Position numbers and translations under genes: made by a program | Source: Bacteroidota bacterium | Lineage (GTDB): Bacteria; Bacteroidota; JABWAT01 | Direction: 5' to 3' | DNA: 64,000 bases | Assembly: GCA_023151185.1 (NCBI GenBank) | Contig: JAKLJL010000001.1 | Coordinates: 558,001-622,000, forward strand | In this document: piece after piece, positions 22,649 through 43,075 of the stretch | Layout: each line of letters starts with the position of its first letter | Numbering within the stretch: the stretch's first letter is position 1 | The notes under the pieces: model-generated | Databases searched by the model: none | What the model was told of the DNA's origin: nothing | What the model saw: the letters and a program-made list of their open reading frames with translations, nothing else

Positions 22649-24124
22649 TCAGGTTTTCAGCCCGAGTTCTTTACACATCCGGGAGTAATTTGGCGGTGCA
22701 ATTCCCAGTTTTTTTGCAGCATCCGCATCACTTGAGGAATGATCCCGGACAAAGGAGACATACTCACGTCTGAACTCAAGTTCTATATCCCGAAGGGGAA
22801 CTCCTTTGTGAAGAAAAGGAGCAAACAGGTCCTTTTTGTCGGATTCGGACAGGGAAGAGGCAACCGGCTGATCGGCCAGGCCAAGGGCTTTCTGGACGAT
22901 CTGGACAGTAATTTTTTGTTCCTCACCAAAGAGCAGTCTCTGGGCAATGTTTTTCAGCTCCCTTACGTTCCCCGGCCAGTTATAGGACAGAAGCAGTTTC
23001 TTAGCCTCAGCCGTCAGTTCAACCGGGTCTTTTCCCATATCCCGTGTGAACGATTCCAGAAAATGATCGAGAAGCAGGGTAATATCCTCACGCCGGTCCT
23101 TTAATGCCGGAACATGGATCCGGATAACATTCAGCCGGTAATATAAATCTTCACGGAACCGTTTCTGTGCAATTTCCTCCTCGATGTTCCGGTTGGTTGC
23201 TGCAATTACCCTGACGTCAACTTTAACCTTCCCCGTCCGGCCGATTTTTTCAATTTCCCCTTCCTGAAGAACCCGAAGCATTTTAACCTGGGCAGAAAGT
23301 GGTAGTTCAGTGATTTCATCCAGAAAAATTGTTCCGTTGCTGGCAATTTCGAACAGCCCGGGTTTATTGGAATTGGCACCGGTAAAAGATCCTTTTGCAT
23401 AGCCAAACAGTTCTGATTCGACCAGTTCAAGCGGAATGGAGCCACAGTTAATGGCAACAAAATTTTCGAAACGCCTGTCACTGGTATAGTGGATGTTATT
23501 GGCCACCATTTCCTTGCCGGTTCCCGAAGGCCCGGTAATGAAAACACTTGCCGAATTCTGGGCACTTTTCCGGATATCTTCCCGAAGGATTTTGATTGCC
23601 GGTGCTTCACCGACAATCATTTTCTGGGAAAGGATATTCTCAACGTTTTTATTCAGTTTTTTAGCCGACCGGAGCTGTTCTTCCTCGAGACGTTTCTTTT
23701 GCCAGGCATTGACGATACTGAGAATAAAATCGGTGGGCTGATAAATGTAATCCTCGATATCGCCTGGGTATTTGGTGCAGTACCAGAAGGCGCCGGCCTG
23801 GATCAGTTTGGCGGCGAAATCGAAATTGGTCAGGTTGATGGTCATTTTGGTGATGACAATGACCTGAAGAGCCGGGGCAAGAATCCGGATCCGGCGAATC
23901 AGTTCATCCCCCATGATCCCGCCGGAAATCTGGTAATCGGTAATCACCACATCATAGCCGCCGGGGTTGGCCTGCAAAAGCTCCAGGGCCGCTTTTCCGT
24001 TAGACACAATATCTTCAATCCGGATTTCAGCAGAGTACGGGTCCAGAGTTTTTTTTATCCGTCGGATGTCATAATCTTCATCTTCGATAACCAGCAGCCG
24101 GATGGTAGTTTCAGTGAGTTTCAT
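22649..24124 (-). CDS. Sigma-54-dependent response regulator (NtrC type)
   Basis: The 491-aa protein has three parts. The receiver (about 8-135) carries the acidic pair in VIEDED, phosphoacceptor D63 in VVITDYQ, T92 and K118. The AAA+ domain (about 168-400) has Walker A GPSGTGKE (198-205), Walker B GTIFLDE (264-270) and a sigma-54 contact loop reading GSFTGA (245-250) instead of GAFTGA. A C-terminal Fis-like helix-turn-helix (DADAAKKLGIAPPNYSRMCK) follows. It should activate RpoN promoters on phosphorylation. Two kinase genes lie immediately upstream in the same operon, so they are the likely partners. Confidence 0.93.
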   Translation of the reverse strand: MKLTETTIRLLVIEDEDYDIRRIKKTLDPYSAEIRIEDIVSNGKAALELLQANPGGYDVVITDYQISGGIMGDELIRRIRILAPALQVIVITKMTINLTNFDFAAKLIQAGAFWYCTKYPGDIEDYIYQPTDFILSIVNAWQKKRLEEEQLRSAKKLNKNVENILSQKMIVGEAPAIKILREDIRKSAQNSASVFITGPSGTGKEMVANNIHYTSDRRFENFVAINCGSIPLELVESELFGYAKGSFTGANSNKPGLFEIASNGTIFLDEITELPLSAQVKMLRVLQEGEIEKIGRTGKVKVDVRVIAATNRNIEEEIAQKRFREDLYYRLNVIRIHVPALKDRREDITLLLDHFLESFTRDMGKDPVELTAEAKKLLLSYNWPGNVRELKNIAQRLLFGEEQKITVQIVQKALGLADQPVASSLSESDKKDLFAPFLHKGVPLRDIELEFRREYVSFVRDHSSSDADAAKKLGIAPPNYSRMCKELGLKT

Positions 24125-27100
24125 TAGGTCCTGTCCTGTTTTTCCCGGAATACCGGATGAGCAGTTCCTGAACGTCGGTCAGTTTAAACGGTTTGCTCAG
24201 ATAATCATCCATTCCGGAATCGATACATTTTTCACGGTCACCGTCCATGGCATTCGCTGTCATGGCAACGATTTTTACCGGTCTGTCCGGATAAAGTGTT
24301 CTGATCTGCCGGGTTGCTTCAAGACCATCCATTTCGGGCATCTGAATATCCATCAGAATGATGTCAAAATCCTGCTCTTCCAGTTTTTTGAGAACTTCCA
24401 GCCCGTTTTCTGCAACTGAGGCTGCGTACCCCATTTTTTTCAGGACATTGAGGGCCAGTTTCTGGTTGACGGGATTGTCTTCGGCCAGAAGAAGCCTGAG
24501 CGGAAATTTTTCGGCAAGTTCCTTATCCAGAGAACCCGGCTTTTCTGATTTTGGCTTTGGCTGCGTTCTTGCAAGGAGTTGCAGAACGGCCTGAGCAAGA
24601 GAAAAGTGCCTGAACGGAAGACTGACCGGGATTACATTCTCGGTTTTGGGCTGCCCGGGATATTCCCGGCCCGGTACATTAAGCGCAACCACTGGAATAT
24701 CTTTCCATTTCAATGGGATTTCTGCTTCCCGTCCAAATTTCTCACCTGGCAAAATGAGGACATCCGGGTCTGATTTTTCAGCTTCCGGACCGGAAATTGC
24801 CGAAAATCCATACATTTCCAAAGTTGTCCGGATGGATTTGCTCCGGATCGGTGAGTCATCCAGAATGACAATCAGGCGGTTTTCGATGAGGTTCTTTTCT
24901 GCGCCTGAAAACGGATTCTGGCGTTTTTTCGAGACTGTAGCCGGAAGAGTAAAGGTGAAAACGGATCCCTTCCCGGGTGTACTCGATACGGAAATCGTTC
25001 CCTGCATCAGACTGACCAGTTTTCGGGTTATGGCAAGACCCAGGCCGGTACCACCGTACTTTCTGGACGTCGAGGAATCAACCTGGGTAAAAGATTCGAA
25101 CAGAAGCGGAATTTTTTCCGCCGGAATTCCGATTCCGGTGTCTTTGATTTCGAACCGGATTGTTGTTGCATGATCCTGCCGTCCGATTCTTGAAACGTGG
25201 ACTTCAATTCCGCCGGTTTCTGTAAATTTCACGGCATTACCGATCAGATTGACTAAAATCTGCCGCAGCCGGAACGCATCCCCGGAGATGGAGCCGGGAA
25301 CATCGGTGTCGATGCAATAGGAAAAATCGAGGTTTTTCTGGTTGATTTTGGGTGCCAGTAAGTCAATGACCTCTTCGATGCAGAAGTCGAGTGCAAGGGG
25401 CTGGTAATCCAGTTCCAGTTTTCCGGTTTCAATTTTAGAGAAATCCAGAATGTCATTGATGATTTCAAGCAGATTTTCGCCGCTGGACTTAATGGTTTCT
25501 GCATAATCCCGCTGTTCGGCATTCAGGTTGGTTTCCAGCATCAGAGCAGTCATCCCGATCACCCCGTTCATCGGAGTTCTGATTTCATGGCTCATGGTTG
25601 CAAGAAACTCAGTTTTTGCCTTGTCTGCTGCCTCGGCGGCATTTTTTGCCTTCAGCAATTCCTGTTCTGCCAGTTTACGTTCGGTTATATCATACCGGAT
25701 GGCCATGAACCGGGACGGCTTGCCGAATTCATCCAGAATCGGGAATATGGTTGCATCAACCCAATAGGGAACCCCCAGCTTGCTGATATTTTTAATTTCC
25801 CCTTTCCAGACTTTTCCGGCTTTAATTGTGTCCCAGAGAATTCTGAAAAAGTCCTTAGAGTGAAATCCCGAGTTCACAATGCGGTGCGACTGGCCGACCA
25901 GTTCTTCAAGGGAATAACCGGCCACCTGGCAAAAATTATCATTCGCTTCGAGGATCACACCCCGTGAATCGGTGATGGATATAATGGCCGAGGCGTTCAT
26001 GGCATTCTGCAGATCCTGAAGTTGCCGGTAGAATCCAGCCAGCCGGATTTCATCGGTTTTCCGGTCGGTAAAATCCTGAATGGTTCCCCTGACTGTGACG
26101 ACCTCTCCTTTCGGATTCAGAACCGGGCGGCCGAAACCGAGAAAATATCTGAGCTGTCCTTCCTGATCCCTGAACCTGAATTCAAGACTGAACGTCCGCT
26201 TTTCAGTGACTGCATCGTTAAGAAGTTTAAGTCCGGACGTGTACTCAGTCGGGAACAACCCCCGCCTGATCATATCGATGGTTGTTTCATCACCCGTACT
26301 CTGCGGGATTTTGAGCAGGGTTTTCAGTTCGGGTGATACCGTGACTTTCATCGTCAGAATATCCAGTTCCCATGTTCCCATCCGGGCAAGACCGAGAGCA
26401 TCTACCAAAACAGTGCGCTGTTCATCGAGTGCCCGTTCGACTTTTTTCTTTTCGGTCATATCCTTGAACACAAACGAGAAAAACTCAACACTTCCATCTT
26501 CTTTTTTATGGGAGTTGACGGTCATCAATACCGGAATTTTCTCGTGGCTCCGGCTGATCAGTTCAGTTTCTCCCTGCCAGAGTCCCGATTCCCGTGATCG
26601 GGGAATGACCAGATCCCTGACAACTGAAATCCCGGAGTGGGTAAACAGATGATCCAGCTTCAAGGTCCAGTTATCCTTACCGGTAAAGGATTCCATTTTC
26701 AGATTCTGATACATGACAAAACTGCCCGGATCCACAAATAAAATCATATCCGGAGAATCTTCAAGAACCCGGCTAAGGCGGCGGATGGCCGATTCACTCA
26801 TCATTTTTGCCGACACATCCCGCAGGGTAACCAGAAAGAATTTTTTATCCCCTGAGGGGAAGGGGACCACTACAATTTCAAGGAATAACGGAAAGATGCC
26901 CGTTACTGGTGAGGTGACCTGCAATTCACAAATGGAGGTTTCCTGCTGGTTTTCCTCTGAAACAGAATTAAGTTTACTGTGCGTCAGGCAGGAAAAAACT
27001 TCATGAACCGAGTTGCTTTTCTTCCCGGCAGCTTTCAGAAACTGGTTTGCAGGGTCATTTCTGAACTGGATCTGACCTGACGCATCAAGAATCAGGACGC

Positions 27101-27275
27101 CGAAGGGAACCAGGCTGAAAAAGTTGACTGATGCGGGAAGACTGGATTCTTCAGATTCCGGGAAAAGACGGGAATAGGTCTCATTGACCTGAGTCAGAAA
27201 AGAGAGATTCTGCCTGTTGACGGGCATTCCGGCTGATTCAAGATGCTGTCTCAGCAGCGGATGTAGATCTTTCAT
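24111..27275 (-). CDS. Hybrid sensor histidine kinase with multiple PAS domains
   Basis: The 1054-aa protein has no clear membrane span. About four PAS-like domains are seen (near 45-155, 165-280, 290-405, 415-535), the last followed by a coiled coil. The HisKA box has H563 in ATMSHEIRTPMNG. The ATPase domain shows NLIGNAVKFTETGG (N near 680) and DTGIGIP, then YGGTGLGLAI. Residues about 800-900 look like a receiver without a phosphoacceptor Asp. A complete receiver follows (LLLAEDNPVNQ, D976 in ILMDIQMPEMDG, DYLSKPF). It overlaps the response-regulator gene by 14 nt. Confidence 0.92.
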   Translation of the reverse strand: MKDLHPLLRQHLESAGMPVNRQNLSFLTQVNETYSRLFPESEESSLPASVNFFSLVPFGVLILDASGQIQFRNDPANQFLKAAGKKSNSVHEVFSCLTHSKLNSVSEENQQETSICELQVTSPVTGIFPLFLEIVVVPFPSGDKKFFLVTLRDVSAKMMSESAIRRLSRVLEDSPDMILFVDPGSFVMYQNLKMESFTGKDNWTLKLDHLFTHSGISVVRDLVIPRSRESGLWQGETELISRSHEKIPVLMTVNSHKKEDGSVEFFSFVFKDMTEKKKVERALDEQRTVLVDALGLARMGTWELDILTMKVTVSPELKTLLKIPQSTGDETTIDMIRRGLFPTEYTSGLKLLNDAVTEKRTFSLEFRFRDQEGQLRYFLGFGRPVLNPKGEVVTVRGTIQDFTDRKTDEIRLAGFYRQLQDLQNAMNASAIISITDSRGVILEANDNFCQVAGYSLEELVGQSHRIVNSGFHSKDFFRILWDTIKAGKVWKGEIKNISKLGVPYWVDATIFPILDEFGKPSRFMAIRYDITERKLAEQELLKAKNAAEAADKAKTEFLATMSHEIRTPMNGVIGMTALMLETNLNAEQRDYAETIKSSGENLLEIINDILDFSKIETGKLELDYQPLALDFCIEEVIDLLAPKINQKNLDFSYCIDTDVPGSISGDAFRLRQILVNLIGNAVKFTETGGIEVHVSRIGRQDHATTIRFEIKDTGIGIPAEKIPLLFESFTQVDSSTSRKYGGTGLGLAITRKLVSLMQGTISVSSTPGKGSVFTFTLPATVSKKRQNPFSGAEKNLIENRLIVILDDSPIRSKSIRTTLEMYGFSAISGPEAEKSDPDVLILPGEKFGREAEIPLKWKDIPVVALNVPGREYPGQPKTENVIPVSLPFRHFSLAQAVLQLLARTQPKPKSEKPGSLDKELAEKFPLRLLLAEDNPVNQKLALNVLKKMGYAASVAENGLEVLKKLEEQDFDIILMDIQMPEMDGLEATRQIRTLYPDRPVKIVAMTANAMDGDREKCIDSGMDDYLSKPFKLTDVQELLIRYSGKNRTGPNETH

Positions 27276-27291
27276 GAGTACCGATCCGGAG

Positions 27292-28782
27292 TTAAGAAAC
27301 CGGTGTTACCGGCAGACTGAAGGTAAACCGGCAGCCTTTTTTTTGGGCAAGATTTTCTGCAACAACCGTCCAGCCGCACCGCTGGGTTGCCAGTTGATAT
27401 GCAATATAACATCCGTAACCGCTGTTTTGTCCCTCAACGTTCTTGGTGGAGATGTTTTCCCTGAAAATTTTCTGAACACCGTCATCGCCGGGTTCCAGCA
27501 GAGACTGCTGAATTCCTTTTCCGTCATCTTCGATGAAGATTTCGGCCCGGTTTTCTGCCGGGTGATACACGGTTCTGACCATAATGGTCAGCCGGTCGTC
27601 GCCGCCGTGGTCGATACTGTTCTGAATAACCGGTTCCAGAATTTCCCAGATAACAAATTCATTGATAGGTACAACCGGCAGTTCAGGATCCAGTTCGATC
27701 TGAAAAGAAACATGATCATTTGCAGCCGAAATCCGGAGAAAAATATTATGAATGATAAAATGAATCAGTTCATTGATCGAGGTTCTGAAAAACGGACTCC
27801 GGATGGTATGGACCGGCGGATCGTACCATTTCATATCATAAATAACCCGGGAAATAAAGTTGGAATACCGGATAACCCGCTGCTTGATTTCCTCGGCATT
27901 CTGTTCACTCAGGTTTCTGAGATCTTCCTTGATAAATCCCATTACCTTTTCTGCTTTGTGATGGGTGTGGTAAATCCGTTTGGTAAACATCGATTCCTTT
28001 TCGTGGATAATCTGTTCCCGCAGGTGGTCTTCGTGTTCAATCAGCAGGGCTTCTTCTGCTTCGTCCCGTTCGACGGCTGTGTAAGTAGCAATGTAATACA
28101 TGGCCAGCAGTCCAAGCAGAATTATGGAGAGATAAATGATGGTGGTTTCATCGTAACTGGCAATGATCTCACGGGTAAAGGTGGCGAAATCGGGCTGCAT
28201 TTTAAAGTAGATGTAGCCGGTCAGTCCCGACGAAAAGGTAAACGGATACAGAATATGAAGAAATTTGTCCTTTTCAATCCGGGTATAAATCTGGCTGGCA
28301 GAAACCGAACCTGATGAACGGACATCCGAAAACATTCTGACCGCTTTGTCATGGTCCATTGAAGCAGGCGGAAGCTGCGTTCCGGGATTTTCGGCAAACT
28401 GAAGCAGGGCCTCACCCCGGTCGATGATTACGGTTGAATCCCCCCTTGAAACAAAAAAACAAATTTCTTTCAGAGCCGGATTGCTTGAATCGGGAAGAAG
28501 GGATTTATTCAGTGCCATGATCAGATCGAACCGGTTCGATTCCGGAAGGTGTTTTCCGTTGCGGATCAGAAAGTCAAGGGTCCCTATGGTCTGTGTGGCG
28601 AGTTGACGAACATATTCCCGCTCTGTTTTTTCGGAATAATTATTCAGGAAACTTCTGAGTGAGGCTTTGTGGACAAACGACAGTATCAGCTGAAATGCAA
28701 TCAGAATTACGAATAAAATCGTAATGTGTTTAAATTCAAACCGGTATTTTCTTCCGGATGCGGCCTGTACTGGTTGTTTCAT
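27292..28782 (-). CDS. Membrane-bound sensor histidine kinase (atypical H-box)
   Basis: The 496-aa protein has a first membrane helix at about 19-37, a periplasmic sensor region to about 212, a second helix at about 214-235, a cytoplasmic helical segment and a HATPase_c domain. The ATPase has VIQNSIDHGGDD (N388), IEDDGKGI (D419) and NSGYGCYIAYQLA. I find no standard HExxxP H-box. The candidate histidines are in KRIYHTHHKAEKVMGF (271-275), close to the second helix. It is the first gene of the minus-strand operon and ends 16 nt before the hybrid kinase start. Confidence 0.85.
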   Translation of the reverse strand: MKQPVQAASGRKYRFEFKHITILFVILIAFQLILSFVHKASLRSFLNNYSEKTEREYVRQLATQTIGTLDFLIRNGKHLPESNRFDLIMALNKSLLPDSSNPALKEICFFVSRGDSTVIIDRGEALLQFAENPGTQLPPASMDHDKAVRMFSDVRSSGSVSASQIYTRIEKDKFLHILYPFTFSSGLTGYIYFKMQPDFATFTREIIASYDETTIIYLSIILLGLLAMYYIATYTAVERDEAEEALLIEHEDHLREQIIHEKESMFTKRIYHTHHKAEKVMGFIKEDLRNLSEQNAEEIKQRVIRYSNFISRVIYDMKWYDPPVHTIRSPFFRTSINELIHFIIHNIFLRISAANDHVSFQIELDPELPVVPINEFVIWEILEPVIQNSIDHGGDDRLTIMVRTVYHPAENRAEIFIEDDGKGIQQSLLEPGDDGVQKIFRENISTKNVEGQNSGYGCYIAYQLATQRCGWTVVAENLAQKKGCRFTFSLPVTPVS

Positions 28783-32405: not shown

Positions 32406-32460
32406 TATCAATTTGATAACAATTCGGGGTGATCAATTTGATAACCCTATCAAAATGATA
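32406..32460 (+). promoter_or_regulatory. Three clustered palindromes, candidate activator sites
   Basis: Three 13-bp sites occur: TATCAATTTGATA (32406-32418), GATCAATTTGATA (32431-32443) and TATCAAAATGATA (32448-32460). The first and third are symmetric about their centre, and the second differs at one outer base. Their centres lie about 142, 117 and 100 bp upstream of the start point expected from the sigma-54 promoter at 32527. That is the usual distance for enhancer-binding activators. Which protein binds is inference. Confidence 0.6.
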
Positions 32461-32526
32461 ACGTTTGTGGAAGCATTTCCATTCCTGTTTCCACTGTTTA
32501 CCGGATAAAAAACCGCTTCCATTTTT

Positions 32527-32543
32527 TTGGCACGTTGTATGCA
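32527..32543 (+). promoter_or_regulatory. Sigma-54 (RpoN) promoter
   Basis: The sequence TTGGCACGTTGTATGCA matches the -24/-12 consensus TGGCACG-N4-TTGCA with one mismatch, and GG (32529-32530) and GC (32541-32542) are 10 nt apart as required. Transcription should start near 32554. That excludes the ATG at 32547 as the symporter start and points to the GTG at 32583. Confidence 0.8.
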
Positions 32544-32582
32544 TAGATGCGTGCGAACGCAATCAAAAAACCAGGACTCACT

Positions 32583-34211
32583 GTGTTTGAAACTTTCGGC
32601 TTTCTGGATTCAACTGTTATACTGGTCTATTTCGCGGTAACGCTGGGAATCGGCCTGTATTTTGCCCGGAGGAAGGAATCCTCTGCAGTTGATTATTTCC
32701 TTGCCGGACGGAACATCGGGTGGGTTGCCGTTGGTTTTTCTCTGTTTGCAACAAATATCTCAAGTGAACACTTCCTCGGCCTGGCCGGATCGGGAGCAAA
32801 CCGGGGCCTTGCAGTCGGGAGTTTTGAATGGATGGCCATCTTCATTTTGGTTGTGATGGGATGGGTCGTCGCTCCGGTTTTCATCCGGCTGGGCGTGTTC
32901 ACTGTGCCTGAATATCTTGAAATCCGTTATGACCGCCGCAGCCGCGTCTACCTGACCTCCATCTCCCTTTTTGCCTACATTGTCACCAAAATTTCCGTGA
33001 TGCTGTTTGCGGCCGGTTTCCTTCTGAATCATATGCTGGGCTGGGATGTCTACACCACTGCGATTATTCTGGTTTTTCTTGCCGGAATTTACACGGTTGC
33101 CGGCGGACTGACTGCAGTTATTTACACCCAGATCTTCCAGACAGTTGTCCTGATTGCCGGTGCACTTCTGGTGACCTTTATCGGGCTGAATGAAGTCGGC
33201 GGATTTTCGGGACTTCAGGAAAAGCTGCCACCTGATTATTTTACCCTTTTTAAACCCATGTCGGATCCTGATTTTCCCTGGACCGGCATAATTTTCGGGG
33301 CCCCAATTGTGGGTTTCTGGTATTGGTGTACTGACCAGTATATCGTGCAGCGGGTTTTAGCATCGAAAAGCATTGATGACGCCAGAAAGGGAACCCTTCT
33401 GGCTGCTGCGTTTAAAATTCTCCCTGTTCTGATGTTGGTTGTTCCGGGATTGATTGCGGTTGCACTCTTCCCGGACGTTTCCGGAGATGAGGCTTACCCT
33501 GCGCTGCTGGAAAGTGACCTGCTTCCGGCAGGCGTAAGAGGATTGGTTGTTGCCGCCATCATTGCAGCCTTAATGTCTTCACTGGCAAGTGTGTTCAACA
33601 GTGCCGCCACCCTGTTCACCGTTGATTTTTACCAGCCCCGTCACCCCGAAACCTCCGAAAGAAAGCTGGTTCTGGTTGGACGCCTTGCCACCCTTTTTAT
33701 CACAATTACTGCTATCCTTTGGGTTCCGCTGACCAAACTGATTTCGACGAATATTTACATTTACATGCAAAGTATTCAGTCTTACATCAGTCCACCCATT
33801 GTTGCCGTCTTTCTTTTTGGTATCTTCAGTAAAAAAATGAATGCTTCAGGGGCATTCTGGTGCCTGATAACCGGTGGTGTTCTGGGTCTTTCCCGGCTGG
33901 TTATTGAGTTCATGGTGAACTCAGGAACTCTTACAGCGCCATGGGCAGTCAGTTTTGCCTCGCTGAATTACCTGCATTTTGCTATTTTGTTATTTTTACT
34001 ATGTACGGGTGTCCTGATTGCTGTCAGCCGGTTGACTGACAGCCAAACCACACAGCAGGCATCCGGACTGATGATTGCCGGGAAACAAATCCCGGACTCT
34101 TCCTATGCCCCGCTTCCGGCAAAAAAAACCGGCAGGTGGGCTAAACAGAATGTGTTTACATCAGTCATCATCTGTGTGCTTGTCATCAGTCTGATGGGAT
34201 TACTGGCATGA
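32583..34211 (+). CDS. Sodium/solute symporter (SSS family, sugar-type)
   Basis: The GTG at 32583 is chosen because AGGA lies 6 nt upstream and the predicted sigma-54 start point is downstream of the ATG at 32547. The product is about 542 aa with 13-14 membrane helices. Family motifs are YFLAGRNIGWVAVGFSLFATN (first part), ISSEHFLGLAGSG, GGLTAVIYTQIFQT, WYWCTDQYIVQRVLASK and the SSLASVFNSAATLFT segment of sodium binding. It resembles the sodium/glucose branch and probably imports a monosaccharide released by the locus enzymes across the inner membrane. Confidence 0.9.
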   Translation: MFETFGFLDSTVILVYFAVTLGIGLYFARRKESSAVDYFLAGRNIGWVAVGFSLFATNISSEHFLGLAGSGANRGLAVGSFEWMAIFILVVMGWVVAPVFIRLGVFTVPEYLEIRYDRRSRVYLTSISLFAYIVTKISVMLFAAGFLLNHMLGWDVYTTAIILVFLAGIYTVAGGLTAVIYTQIFQTVVLIAGALLVTFIGLNEVGGFSGLQEKLPPDYFTLFKPMSDPDFPWTGIIFGAPIVGFWYWCTDQYIVQRVLASKSIDDARKGTLLAAAFKILPVLMLVVPGLIAVALFPDVSGDEAYPALLESDLLPAGVRGLVVAAIIAALMSSLASVFNSAATLFTVDFYQPRHPETSERKLVLVGRLATLFITITAILWVPLTKLISTNIYIYMQSIQSYISPPIVAVFLFGIFSKKMNASGAFWCLITGGVLGLSRLVIEFMVNSGTLTAPWAVSFASLNYLHFAILLFLLCTGVLIAVSRLTDSQTTQQASGLMIAGKQIPDSSYAPLPAKKTGRWAKQNVFTSVIICVLVISLMGLLA

Positions 34212-37000: not shown

Positions 37001-39643
37001 ATGAAAAAAATTCTATTGCTGTTTACCTGCATTTTTGCCCTGGCAGGTTTGGTCAATGCCTCGAATACAGGGAAAATTACCGGAACGGTCACCGACAGTA
37101 AGACAGGTGAAGCCGTTATCGGCGCCAATGTGATTGTGCTTGGAACCCATTACGGTGCAGCAACCGATCTGGATGGGAAATATTCAATTTATAACGTACC
37201 TCCCGGTGAGTACAAACTGGTCATCAGCTCGGTCGGTTACCAGAAAATCACCGTTTCAAAAGTTATTGTCAAAATCAACCTGACCACCCGTCAGGATGTT
37301 AAAATGGTGACAGAGGATATTCTGTCTGATGAAATTGTTGTTGAAGCTGAGGCTCCGCTTGTTCAGAAAGACTTAACCAGTACATCGGTTACGGTTACGT
37401 CTGCTGATATCAAGGCTATGCCGGTTGAAAACATGTTTCAGGTTGTCAATATGCAGGCCGGTGTTGTCGATGGCCACTTCCGTGGCGGCCGGAGCAACGA
37501 AGTCGGTTACCTGGTTGACGGAGTACCGGTAAATGATGTATATAACAACTCGGTTGCAGTCGGCGTTGAAAATGCTTCAATCCGTCAGCTTGAAGTGATT
37601 TCCGGGGCATTTAATGCAGAATATGGCCGGAATATGTCCGGTATCGTGAATATTGTTACTCAGGATGGATCCCTCGAAAAATATGAATCCAATTACTCTG
37701 TAACATTAGGGAATTATTATTCTTCAAATACAAAAATTTTCAGAAACCTGGATAATCCCTGGAATATCGCAACCAAGGATTATTCGGCTACTTTTTCAGG
37801 CCCGGTGCCGATGCTGGATGGTGTTTCATTTTTTGTCACCGGCCGGTATTATGACGACCAGGGTTATTTCTGGGGCAAACGGATCTATAATATTGCCGAC
37901 ACGGATTCTCTGTTCCCGATCAAGTTCATGACGAACACCGGGGATAAAAAATGGGTCCCGATGCAAACTTCCAAAAAGCTTTCTTTAAGCCCAAAAATTA
38001 CCTGGTCTACTGAAACCTTCAAGTTGTCATACAGTTTGTTTTATGATGACAATGAAAATCAGTATTACAGCCATGACTGGTCTTATTCACCCGACGGCCG
38101 GCTGACCCATTTCCGGACCAACTACGTCAATACAGTGAAATTTACCCATTTTCCTACCAGTTCTACTTTTCATGAGTTGTCTCTTGCCGCCAACATTCAC
38201 CGGTACAAAGGCTATCTGTATGAAAATGAGTATGATTCACGGTATGTAGATCCGAGTCTGGGCTCACCTGATGGAAATTACGCGTTCCGGTATGGCGGAA
38301 ATGATGGATCCCGGTATGAGCGATACACCAATTCCTATCTGGTTAAATGGCAACTCACTTCGCAACTGAACGACAAACATAAACTGGGCGCAGGAGCTGA
38401 AGTCCGTTTTCATGAGCTTTATGATCACGGTAAGTCCATTCAGTCCCGTTTTGCTGAAGATACTGTTTTCGTAGTCAGATATGCCCCTCTGCACTTTGGC
38501 GGAAACCAGCAATATCATGAAGATCCGCTTGAAATGGCCTTTTATCTTCAGGATAAAATGGAATATGATATGATGATTATCAATGCCGGACTCAGGTATG
38601 AGTATTTTGACCCCCGTTCCAGAATGCCGGCAGATTTGCAAAACCCAACCAGCAATCCATTGTATCCCGGCGGATGGGTGGGTTCAAAAGTCTCAACCCA
38701 ACTTTCCCCCCGTCTGGGCGTTTCCTTCCCGATTTCTGACCGGGGTGTCCTTCACTTTTCTTACGGACATTTCTTCCAGCCCCCCTCCTTCCAGCAGGCT
38801 TATCTGAATCATGAGTACTATATCAACGGCGGAAGCAGTGTCAGTACCCAGGTCGGAAATGCAAACCTGAAGCCAGAGAGTACCACGAGTTATGAATTCG
38901 GCCTTCAGCAAGCCCTTTCGGACGATATGGGATTTGAGACCACGATTTACTACCGGGATATCCGTAACCTGATCGGTGGTGAAATTTTAAAAACCTATGA
39001 TGGTCTGTACTATTCCAGATACATCAACCGGGACTACGGTAATGTTAAGGGATTCATTCTTTCCTATGATTACCGGTTGGCCAAATTACTTAAACTGACT
39101 GCAGATTATACCTATCAGATTGCAGAAGGGAATTCGTCCAATCCGAATCAAGCCTTTCAGGCTGCACAGGATGATGCCAAATTTATCGAGAAACACGTAG
39201 TTGCCCTTGACTGGGATCAGCGCCACACTCTGAATTTATCTGCCATCGTAACGGAAGAAACCTACGGGACCTTCTCCTTTATCTTTAATTACGGTTCAGG
39301 AAACCCATATACCGAGGACATCCGGCATACAGGTGGAATTACCGTGACCAACGGAGGCACAAAACCGGCTGTTTACTCATTTGATATGAGATATGACAAA
39401 GGATTTGAATTCCTTGATCTCCGGATGAATACCTTCGTCCTGATTTACAATGTGTTCAATATCGAGAATGAGTATGGCGTTTTCGGGTCAACCGGGCGTG
39501 CAACCAAAGATATCGAAGCAGAATACAACATCACGACCAACTACCAGGTTGCAGGGTATAACACCATCCGGGACTATATCAATGATCCCACCCGGTATTC
39601 CGGCCCCAGAACCATCAAAGTTGGCTTGAATTTTTCCTTGTAA
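37001..39643 (+). CDS. TonB-dependent outer-membrane receptor
   Basis: The 880-aa protein has a signal peptide (MKKILLLFTCIFALAGLVNA) and an N-terminal CarboxypepD_reg-like domain (KITGTVTDSKTGEAVIGANV, YNVPPGEYKLVISSVGY). A plug domain (VTSADIKAMPVENMFQVVNM, GGRSNEVGYLVDGVPVNDVY, FNAEYGRNMSGIVNIVTQDG) and a long aromatic-rich beta-barrel ending IKVGLNFSL follow. It should import oligosaccharides using TonB energy. The two genes that follow encode a surface partner and a PorV-like barrel, but no SusD gene is found. The layout is SusC-like in position only. Confidence 0.92.
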   Translation: MKKILLLFTCIFALAGLVNASNTGKITGTVTDSKTGEAVIGANVIVLGTHYGAATDLDGKYSIYNVPPGEYKLVISSVGYQKITVSKVIVKINLTTRQDVKMVTEDILSDEIVVEAEAPLVQKDLTSTSVTVTSADIKAMPVENMFQVVNMQAGVVDGHFRGGRSNEVGYLVDGVPVNDVYNNSVAVGVENASIRQLEVISGAFNAEYGRNMSGIVNIVTQDGSLEKYESNYSVTLGNYYSSNTKIFRNLDNPWNIATKDYSATFSGPVPMLDGVSFFVTGRYYDDQGYFWGKRIYNIADTDSLFPIKFMTNTGDKKWVPMQTSKKLSLSPKITWSTETFKLSYSLFYDDNENQYYSHDWSYSPDGRLTHFRTNYVNTVKFTHFPTSSTFHELSLAANIHRYKGYLYENEYDSRYVDPSLGSPDGNYAFRYGGNDGSRYERYTNSYLVKWQLTSQLNDKHKLGAGAEVRFHELYDHGKSIQSRFAEDTVFVVRYAPLHFGGNQQYHEDPLEMAFYLQDKMEYDMMIINAGLRYEYFDPRSRMPADLQNPTSNPLYPGGWVGSKVSTQLSPRLGVSFPISDRGVLHFSYGHFFQPPSFQQAYLNHEYYINGGSSVSTQVGNANLKPESTTSYEFGLQQALSDDMGFETTIYYRDIRNLIGGEILKTYDGLYYSRYINRDYGNVKGFILSYDYRLAKLLKLTADYTYQIAEGNSSNPNQAFQAAQDDAKFIEKHVVALDWDQRHTLNLSAIVTEETYGTFSFIFNYGSGNPYTEDIRHTGGITVTNGGTKPAVYSFDMRYDKGFEFLDLRMNTFVLIYNVFNIENEYGVFGSTGRATKDIEAEYNITTNYQVAGYNTIRDYINDPTRYSGPRTIKVGLNFSL

Positions 39644-39658
39644 GAGTGGAGTAATCAC

Positions 39659-42600
39659 ATGTTAAAGAAAATTTTTATTCTGTTCAGTCTGCTCGCAGCA
39701 GCGCTGCCTGAACTTTCTTCTGCACAAACTGTGGATCCTGAAGCGGCACGTTACCGTGCGGATCAGATGGGAAGTTACATTCACCGTAAAGAAGGGATCA
39801 TGGATGGGAACCTGGTAAAGACCCTTTTCTATAATACCGGTGAAGTGGCTCAATGGCCATTCTCTCCTTCAGGCGAATGGCCGAAGGGAACCGGGATCGA
39901 CTACGTCGACGGTATCTGTATGATTGTGACAGCCCGTGCCAAATCGCTCCGGACTGACCGCGAAAGATACATGACCCCCGTTGAGACGTTCTACCGGGAA
40001 GAAATGGATATTACAACGACTGTTCCTGCAAATCTGGTCAATGAGGCCTGGGGCTGGAATCCGGTTCCCGGCTATTCGAACCTGCTGACCACCATTCCGG
40101 CAATGAGTATTGAGACCAGCAGCTGGCCGCCAACCTGGCCTGCTGCACTTGATTTACCTTCAACCTACGATGGTAACTGGTACGGTTATTTTGGCCGCGG
40201 AATCTTCAATGCCGATCTGGAAACTTTTTTCGTCATGGATGATTCCAAAGATGCAGAATGGACCAAGTATCCTAACTTTTTCTATCCGATTATCAGCGAT
40301 GCACCGAAGAAAAATGACGGTACTTATGATTACGCCAACGGAACCCAATGGTACAATCCGGATATCCGGAAAGGGTTGGGACTCCGGGTCGAAACCCGTG
40401 GTTTCCAATGGTCCCAGGCCCTTGCCGAAGACATTATTTTCTGGCATTATGATATCTCCAACCTGGGTGACCATGATTATGACTCCACCTTTTTCGGTTT
40501 TTATACAGATACCGGTCTCGGTGGTGATGTTGACAACGGTGATGATAACGCCGGCTACGATTCAGAACTGGATTTGACCTGGGGCTATGACTATGACAAC
40601 ACTATTTCGGGACGCCCGGATGTTGTTCTTGGTGTTTATGGGTATGCTTATCTGGAATCCCCCGGTAATTCAAATGATGGCAGAGACAATGATGAAGACG
40701 GGTTGGTGGATGAACGGCGCGACGATCCGGATGAAGCTACTGAATTAACCGTTACCAATGGAAAAACCCATTTTAAAGCAGACGAAGACGGTGACTGGCA
40801 GCCCTTTATGGATTTAAACGGCGACGGTGTCTGGACAATTTATTCAGCCCCGGGTGCCGAAAATTTCAGTGCTGAACCGTTGCTTGATGACGTCGGAAAG
40901 GATGGCGTTGGCGCCTTTGACGAGCCCTGGGACTCGGTTAAAAAAGCTTTTAAAACCCACGTACCCGATGCTGGAGAAGGGAATGGCAGACCCAATCAGG
41001 GAGAACCCAATTACGGAAAACTGGATAAAGATGAATCTGATCAGATTGGTTTGACCTCGGTCGTCATTGAAGAACTTTCCGGGAAAACTGTACGGGACAT
41101 CTGGCCACGGAATGACGAAGTCATCTGGGACCGGATGAGTTCTGCCAAGTTTGACACTTCAATTCAACGGAAAAACATCCAGATTCTGTTTGGTTCCGGT
41201 CCGTTTTTGTTGAGAGGTGCAATTAACTCTGATGGATACGGACGTGAACGCTTTTCAATGGCCCTGCTTTTCGGCGAGGATAAGGAAGATCTGGTTTTCA
41301 ACAAAAAAACCGTTCAGATCATTTACAATGCCGGTTACAACTTTACCAAACCACCCCTTACTCCGATTCTGACCGCCCGTGCCTCAGACAAAAAGGTTTA
41401 TCTGAGCTGGGACAGCCGTGCTGAAGAATCACGTGACCCAATTCTGGGATATGAAAACAACGACCCGGCTCAGGGTCCAAGAAAAGATTTTGAAGGGTAT
41501 GCGCTTTACAGAAGCACTGAACCGGAATTTGCAGACGTTAAAACGATCACCAATTCAAAAGGTGTTCCCCAGTACTACAAGCCGATTAAAAAATGGGATT
41601 TGATTGATGGTATCGAAGGTCCTGATCCGGTCGGAATTCTGGGTGCTGCTTATTACCGTGGCGACGAAACCGGGTTAAGCCATGCTTATATCGATGAAGA
41701 TGTAAAAAATGGGGTAACTTATTATTATGCGCTGGTTTCTTATGACCAGGGTGTTTCGGCAGATACGGCCGCCTTCAGAATTCAGCCGACTGAAAGTCCG
41801 AAAACAATTAAACGGGCTAATTCAGGCGTCATCACCTTCGTGGATCAAAACTGTGCAGTGGTCACCCCGAATGCCCCGGCACTGGGATATGTACCGGCAT
41901 CCTTCACTCTCGATCAGACTCCTGACCAGGGAACCGGAACCATGGATATTATTGCAGTTGATCCCGGAAAAATCAGAGATGATGTGAAATACAAAATCGT
42001 TTTTGATACAACCGGTACCTTTCCGTTCTATGAAACCTCGGGTGCAATTGTTATCCGGAATGATGTCGACACGCTTGGTGTACGGATAAAAGAAGACCAG
42101 ATCGGAACCGATATCAATGAAAAAGCAACAGATGTCTTCGATGGGGTAGCAGTTCAAATCAAAAACTCCAGAAAAACGGCAGTTTTAGGAGAGCAATCGA
42201 CCTGGGTGTCTGGAAATTCGGCAAATTTACCGACCATTCTGGCCTACCAAACTCCTGTACCGCCGGTATCTTACGGCCCGATGTATTATTTCTACATTAC
42301 CGGAAAATCAACACCCAACCCCTACTACAAGTACTTTGGCGGTGATTATGAAATTGAGTTTTTTGACTCGATGGTTGATTCTTCATTAAAGACAGAGAAT
42401 AAAACTGACCATTACTTCCAGAAACGGCCTGTTAATTTCAAAATCAAGAATATTACCAGCGGGAAGTATGTTGACTTTAATGTCTGGCTGCCATTGGCAT
42501 ACCGGGATTCTGTGAATCTGGTTCCGGATGGTACAACCAAGATCATCATCGTGGAATATGCAACCAGTGTTGAATCGGGCGAAACCGCAGAACGGTGGCC

Positions 42601-43075
42601 GGTTATGTTCCAGTACGGGATGTCCGGCGACGAGAATAAGGCCAGGCCGAAGGCTGGTGATAAATTCAGAATCCGGATTGAGAAAAAATTCGTGAAGGGA
42701 GATTCGTTTACCTTCACAACTAAAGCCGAATCAATGAATAAGTCAGCAGCCAAATCGGCTTTGAATTCAATCAAAGTAGTGCCGAACCCGTACATTTCTG
42801 CAGCCACCTGGGAACCGGCACAGTATAAGGTTACCGGCCGTGGTGAACGTAAAATTGATTTTATCCACCTGCCCAGTACCTGTACCATCCGGATCTATAC
42901 CCTTTCGGGTAAACTGGTGAAAACACTTGAAAAAACCGAATCATTGGCAAACGGAGCAGTTTCCTGGAATCTGATCAGCGATGACGGTATGGATGTTGCC
43001 TATGGGCTTTATATTTATCATGTAGATGCCCCGGGTGTTGGTGAACATATCGGCAAATTTGCCCTGATCAAGTAA
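39659..43075 (+). CDS. Large secreted partner of the TonB receptor with Ca-binding motifs
   Basis: This 1138-aa protein has a signal peptide (LFSLLAAALPELSSAQ). A mixed N-terminal region includes acidic calcium-type repeats (NDGRDNDEDGLVDERRDD, DLNGDGVW), an FN3-like segment (PILTARASDKKVYLSWDSRA ... GYALYRSTEPEF), and a VVPNPY-type tail (SIKVVPNPYISAATWEP, then CTIRIYTLSGKLVKTLEK, ending GKFALIK). That tail is a T9SS-type C-terminal domain variant common in FCB lineages. It starts 15 nt after the receptor and may form the surface lid that SusD provides elsewhere. No enzyme motif was recognised. Confidence 0.65.
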   Translation: MLKKIFILFSLLAAALPELSSAQTVDPEAARYRADQMGSYIHRKEGIMDGNLVKTLFYNTGEVAQWPFSPSGEWPKGTGIDYVDGICMIVTARAKSLRTDRERYMTPVETFYREEMDITTTVPANLVNEAWGWNPVPGYSNLLTTIPAMSIETSSWPPTWPAALDLPSTYDGNWYGYFGRGIFNADLETFFVMDDSKDAEWTKYPNFFYPIISDAPKKNDGTYDYANGTQWYNPDIRKGLGLRVETRGFQWSQALAEDIIFWHYDISNLGDHDYDSTFFGFYTDTGLGGDVDNGDDNAGYDSELDLTWGYDYDNTISGRPDVVLGVYGYAYLESPGNSNDGRDNDEDGLVDERRDDPDEATELTVTNGKTHFKADEDGDWQPFMDLNGDGVWTIYSAPGAENFSAEPLLDDVGKDGVGAFDEPWDSVKKAFKTHVPDAGEGNGRPNQGEPNYGKLDKDESDQIGLTSVVIEELSGKTVRDIWPRNDEVIWDRMSSAKFDTSIQRKNIQILFGSGPFLLRGAINSDGYGRERFSMALLFGEDKEDLVFNKKTVQIIYNAGYNFTKPPLTPILTARASDKKVYLSWDSRAEESRDPILGYENNDPAQGPRKDFEGYALYRSTEPEFADVKTITNSKGVPQYYKPIKKWDLIDGIEGPDPVGILGAAYYRGDETGLSHAYIDEDVKNGVTYYYALVSYDQGVSADTAAFRIQPTESPKTIKRANSGVITFVDQNCAVVTPNAPALGYVPASFTLDQTPDQGTGTMDIIAVDPGKIRDDVKYKIVFDTTGTFPFYETSGAIVIRNDVDTLGVRIKEDQIGTDINEKATDVFDGVAVQIKNSRKTAVLGEQSTWVSGNSANLPTILAYQTPVPPVSYGPMYYFYITGKSTPNPYYKYFGGDYEIEFFDSMVDSSLKTENKTDHYFQKRPVNFKIKNITSGKYVDFNVWLPLAYRDSVNLVPDGTTKIIIVEYATSVESGETAERWPVMFQYGMSGDENKARPKAGDKFRIRIEKKFVKGDSFTFTTKAESMNKSAAKSALNSIKVVPNPYISAATWEPAQYKVTGRGERKIDFIHLPSTCTIRIYTLSGKLVKTLEKTESLANGAVSWNLISDDGMDVAYGLYIYHVDAPGVGEHIGKFALIK

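Follow-up and report, generated by a model that had tools for sequence, protein, structure and literature searches.

The window analysed here is a 64-kb stretch of DNA from a Bacteroidota genome, and all positions without a locus prefix are counted from its first nucleotide. An SSF sodium:solute symporter gene (32583-34211, plus strand) heads a putative 30-kb glycan operon. It almost certainly starts at the GTG at 32583 and not at the ATG at 32547, since this ATG precedes the predicted transcription start and the orthologues, by which the start was set, begin at that GTG. The rest of the putative operon (34208-62484, plus strand) follows, no gap being longer than 108 bp, and includes genes for a CBM9/T9SS protein, a TonB-dependent receptor (at 37001), a 1138-aa protein, an outer membrane protein, GH16, GH2, GH3, PPIase, GH92, MFS, ROK and CotH proteins, an esterase and TonB. 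The organisation differs from that of a canonical SusCD polysaccharide utilization locus in that the receptor is present and its SusD partner absent, no match to SusD_RagB (PF07980) being found in the genome. The 1138-aa protein (39659-43075) has no Pfam match, and relatives keep it behind the TonB-dependent receptor; as the genome is without SusD, this protein may fill the SusD role. A search against Rfam returned no known RNA in the window.

The region before the symporter gene contains three palindromes of the type TATCA-N3-TGATA, namely TATCAATTTGATA (32406-32418), GATCAATTTGATA (32431-32443, with one mismatch) 25 bp after the first, and TATCAAAATGATA (32448-32460) 42 bp after the first, a spacing that is kept at loci L152, L228, L196 and L197. 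They are followed by a predicted sigma-54 −24/−12 promoter, TGGCACGTTGTATGCA (32528-32543, plus strand; TGGCACG-TTGT-ATGCA), which departs from TGGCACG-N4-TTGCA by one mismatch and has the GG-N10-GC form, with GG at 32529-30 and GC at 32541-42, 10 bp apart. The expected start lies at approximately 32554, relative to which the palindromes are centred at −142, −117 and −100, as upstream enhancer sites of conserved position. A direct reading of the sequence thus agrees with the initial annotation, made from the letters of the window, which had placed three palindromes at these distances from a near-consensus −24/−12 element. Two further elements lie between the enhancer and the −24 element: a candidate operator for a LacI-family repressor, TGGAAGCATTTCCA (32468-32481), and a candidate half-operator, GCTTCCA (32515-32521), which adjoins the −24 element and is conserved in three SSF promoters.

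Neither the palindrome nor the box is rare when taken singly. With up to one mismatch, five palindromes were found in the 64-kb window against 2.07 expected after shuffling, three of the five falling inside 55 bp. The −24/−12 box alone is not unusual (three found against 4.55 expected in the 64-kb window, two mismatches allowed), and exact TGGCACGN5TGC occurs three times in the genome, compared with two for the reversed control. The case must therefore rest on arrangement and conservation, and significance is carried by the combination, above all by its conservation elsewhere. The lack of significance of the box in the window would also suit an ordinary sigma-A promoter with a coincidental box, the palindromes then serving as operators for some unrelated repressor, for example of the LacI, GntR or TetR type, and a LacI-type operator does exist at 32468; this explanation is considered very unlikely in view of the comparative data described below, where palindromes and a TGGCA box recur together, 50-80 bp apart, in distant genomes.

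Within the genus, the orthologous symporter promoters of two congeneric genomes keep the three palindromes, with the same 25- and 17-bp spacing, and a TGGCATG box at equal distance, and the GH3 promoters of both genomes carry the same palindrome triad. In an alignment of six promoters, the conserved columns fall mainly in the palindromes, a TGGAAGC element, the TGGCA box and a ATCGCAAT-like stretch after the box. The initial annotation had proposed a search for further palindromes near sigma-54 boxes, and such sites were indeed found both in the same genome and in relatives. A second target in the genome lies 2 kb beyond the window, where two exact palindromes 42 bp apart (C11:624038/624080) precede a GH3 gene whose promoter also has a degenerate middle site and TGGCACGATTCCTGCA. 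Additional candidates combining palindrome and TGGCA box are located before GH5 and CBM9 genes on contig C21 and before a GH5 gene at C11:378128.

Not all of the 23 copies of TATCA-N3-TGATA in the genome were accepted as regulon members, since many of them stem from 42-bp repeat elements (L017, L019, L023, L026) or from coding sequence (L018, L021, L025). The repeat units, 42 bp long and containing the 13-bp palindrome (L019:7065-7329, L026:6317-6455, L023:7177-7231, L017:5527-5539), are in tandem at three places. They border a conserved element of about 300 bp that occurs four times in the genome. No promoter-like context was seen at the places of the 42-bp repeats, and the repeat elements have no Rfam match. 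Their period equals the distance between enhancer sites 1 and 3. The activator may bind the arrays, which would then act as decoy sites, or the match may be a coincidence. The occurrence of the 13-mer in arrays or single units at four genome places, together with the shared 42-bp distance, could be taken to mean that the promoter palindromes themselves stem from a dispersed family of non-coding repeats and reached this site by transposition. This origin is hardly credible, because the promoter palindromes are embedded in sequence that resembles neither the repeat unit nor the element beside it, the flanks of the repeat are largely missing from the promoter sites of relatives as well, the arrays have no good −24/−12 element placed as a promoter would be, ahead of a gene, and other genomes share the promoter sites.

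The conservation extends beyond the genus. The window organism, whose own class is represented here by four genomes, is related to Ignavibacteria-type MAGs, from which symporter homologues (i.e. those from MAGs named Ignavibacteria, Ignavibacteriales or similar) were compared with homologues from other phyla. Most of the Ignavibacteria-type loci have TGGCA-N6/7-TG approximately 45-75 bp before the coding start, together with a wider palindrome, TTATYA-N3-TRATAA, often paired 22 bp apart. Palindrome and TGGCA-N6/7-TG were jointly present at 10 of 15 Ignavibacteria-type symporter loci versus none of 65 homologues from other phyla (Fisher's test, 1.8e-9, not corrected for shared ancestry; shuffle expectation 0.01), the remaining five Ignavibacteria-type loci failing the joint test. 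When the search for a palindrome pair plus TGGCA was made blind to the symporter, 12 matches were obtained in 197 genomes of the related class and none in the reversed control, and eight of the 12 lay directly before a symporter gene. This search used a wider gap range than a double-palindrome search with a narrower gap, which gave no matches in 57 genomes. The TGGCA of the −24 element is constant, whereas at −12 many relatives have TGT or TGA in place of TGC, a relaxation of the GC in GG-N10-GC.

The regulator proposed to act at these sites is encoded at 22649-24124 on the minus strand and is of the NtrC type, with a receiver (Response_reg, 42.6 bits; phospho-acceptor D63 in VVITDYQ), an AAA+ module (Sigma54_activat, 3.4e-68) in which the GAFTGA-type sigma-54 contact loop reads GSFTGA, and a putative C-terminal HTH. 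The Pfam HTH_8 model stays below threshold at the C-terminus, and the NorR model aligns to its end; the recognition helix is nearly invariant, in keeping with the conserved operator. Next to it on the same strand are genes for a soluble hybrid histidine kinase (24111-27275) with PAS repeats, HisKA, HATPase and receiver domains, and for a membrane histidine kinase (27292-28782) with an extracytoplasmic sensor. The membrane kinase gave no HisKA Pfam match; the best matches of its predicted fold (pLDDT 68, moderate confidence) are histidine-kinase cores, its FTKRIYHTHHKAEK box is conserved, and it is homologous to the regulator-adjacent kinase in the relatives examined. An NtrC-type regulator and its kinases, facing away from the symporter about 8 kb distant, are found as the initial annotation had described; they occupy 22649-28782 on the minus strand. 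The absence of rpoN had been named there as grounds for abandoning the idea of sigma-54 control; the genome encodes one sigma-54 (PF04552, E = 3.8e-54) with an intact RpoN box, ARRTVTKYR.

Orthologues of the regulator are encoded in 53 of the 197 genomes of the related class, including all 12 that bear the motif (Fisher's test, 5e-8, not corrected for shared ancestry), and in G251, G218, G232, G144, G240 and G098 the regulator gene and the match are separated by 16 bp to 5.5 kb. A different set of 60 genomes was searched with the single-palindrome pattern; where the orthologue was absent, most matches fell inside genes. The proposal of two-component, sigma-54 control made in the initial annotation is supported by this co-occurrence, as the presence of the regulator tracks that of the motif across genomes; that the pattern occurs class-wide only where the NtrC-type regulator is encoded also speaks against an unrelated repressor.

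In 20 of 24 modules from relatives and paralogues, a membrane-anchored protein of the SBP_bac_1 family precedes kinase and regulator. Such a solute-binding protein is absent beside the kinase and regulator genes at the window locus and in its congeners. Among the modules examined, the hybrid kinase inserted between membrane kinase and regulator (24111-27275) occurs only in the genus of the window. Its presence seems to accompany the loss of the sugar-binding protein; the relative G001, from another genus, has neither binding protein nor hybrid kinase at this locus. A second complete module of binding protein, kinase and regulator (L159:5181-9451, on C21) is paralogous to that of the window and shares its contig with the GH5 and CBM9 genes bearing the same palindromes. 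The regulator at C21:80011 is 56% identical to the 22649 regulator, with the same or a nearly identical recognition helix, and the palindromes before the GH5/CBM9 genes lie 18-35 kb from it. It is conceivable, if rather doubtful, that this paralogue, or both regulators, act at the sigma-54 promoter before the symporter, with beta-glucan-type and mannan-type loci forming one regulon. The assignment of the symporter promoter to the 22649 regulator is favoured over the paralogue by the finding that the symporter-linked regulator is of the 22649 type in G000, G001, G002 and G003.

The candidate LacI operator at 32468, which did not feature in the initial annotation, has a distribution of its own. 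In each of the four class genomes, a LacI-family gene has the TGGAAGCATTTCCA element 45-47 bp upstream. The element also precedes a CBM48/alpha-amylase-type gene in two genomes and recurs in the genus's symporter and GH3 promoters, there between enhancer and −24. The LacI-family gene (L217:4999-6030, G000:C25) is preceded by TGGAAGCCTTTCCA in all four class genomes. The product of the gene at C25 is a candidate regulator of several carbohydrate promoters, and the simplest reading would be that the repressor is probably autoregulated and also restrains the glycan promoters. Because this operator differs from the palindromes in sequence and has its own conserved target, a LacI gene, it argues against the view that the palindromes themselves are repressor sites. 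Its position between enhancer and promoter implies that activation is probably not the sole input.

Together, it is suggested, with a probability of about 0.88, that a sigma-54 promoter drives the symporter gene and the glycan operon and is activated by the NtrC-type 22649-24124 regulator via the three palindromes. The computed basis consists of the sites, the box, rpoN, the conservation, the co-occurrence of the regulator and the motif shared with the second GH operon. As to protein-DNA binding and phosphotransfer, we infer that the regulator, once phosphorylated by the membrane kinase (27292-28782) as phosphate donor, would bind the three TATCA-N3-TGATA sites as dimers or higher oligomers, loop the DNA and, through its AAA+ GSFTGA module, open the sigma-54 holoenzyme at TGGCACG-N4-ATGCA. 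In most relatives, the kinase paired with the membrane-anchored SBP_bac_1 sugar-binding protein would constitute a three-component sugar sensor, which in the genus of the window would have been modified by absence of the binding protein and addition of the hybrid kinase. The LacI-family protein would probably repress or modulate the same promoter through TGGAAGCATTTCCA. Regarding the identity of the inducing sugar, beta-glucan or mannan oligosaccharides are plausible candidates.

The proposed system resembles those of the NtrC/DctD/ZraR/NorR type in its regulator of receiver, AAA+ module and putative HTH, GAFTGA-type loop, upstream palindromic enhancers and −24/−12 promoter, whereas it differs in its targets (a TonB-receptor glycan operon and a symporter), in its TATCA-N3-TGATA operator and in the relaxed −12 C of relatives. 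LevR, ManR and CelR of the Bacillota are PRD-domain proteins of PTS operons that likewise place sugar uptake genes under sigma-54; in contrast, a phosphorylated response regulator is here proposed to control SSF and glycan genes. For CelR, sigma-54 control of sugar uptake genes is described in PMC10864463. CuaDSR of Ruminiclostridium cellulolyticum is a three-component sugar sensor of solute-binding protein, kinase and regulator (PMC10384115) with the same gene order as in relatives of the window locus. Unlike the present system, however, CuaR carries an HTH of the AraC type, its description includes no sigma-54 step (PMC10384115), and the window locus is without the binding protein.

Glycan loci of Bacteroidota are usually described in terms of hybrid two-component and ECF systems, which serve the same biological task as the locus studied here. 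The kinases and the regulator at the window locus are separate proteins without an AraC HTH, and the sensor-AraC HTH fusion of the hybrid systems is thus lacking. The view expressed in the initial annotation that control is unlike that usual in Bacteroidota holds for this locus, but the genome also contains 22 matches to the Y_Y_Y domain, which is found in hybrid-type sensors. A 2024 review of hemicellulase regulation covers hybrid two-component systems, ECF and catabolite repression, and sigma-54, RpoN and NtrC all go unmentioned in its main text (PMC10766802). In Flavobacterium psychrophilum, −24/−12 promoters comparable to that proposed here were demonstrated in a member of the Bacteroidota, with the difference that the sigma-54 targets there serve protein quality control, envelope stress and gliding or are exported proteins, and do not concern the uptake of glycans (PMC9723704). 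In the passages found in a 2025 cross-phyla survey, no glycan or polysaccharide-utilization targets are given for Bacteroidota (PMC12316311). No direct precedent linking sigma-54 with polysaccharide loci in Bacteroidota was found in the open-access papers searched.

It is somewhat more likely than not that the circuit of sugar-binding protein, kinase, NtrC-type regulator and sigma-54 promoter is old and lineage-wide and adds to the hybrid two-component and ECF systems a third major mode of controlling how Bacteroidota sensu lato take up glycans; in the lineage of the window, a LacI repressor would make it a dual-input switch. For MAG lineages that are largely uncultured, a sigma-54 route conserved in Ignavibacteria and neighbours supplies a regulator, an operator and a list of targets, and predicts which symporters and hydrolases respond to one common signal. 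The sensing mechanism, in which a binding protein would touch a kinase that drives an enhancer-binding protein, becomes directly testable.
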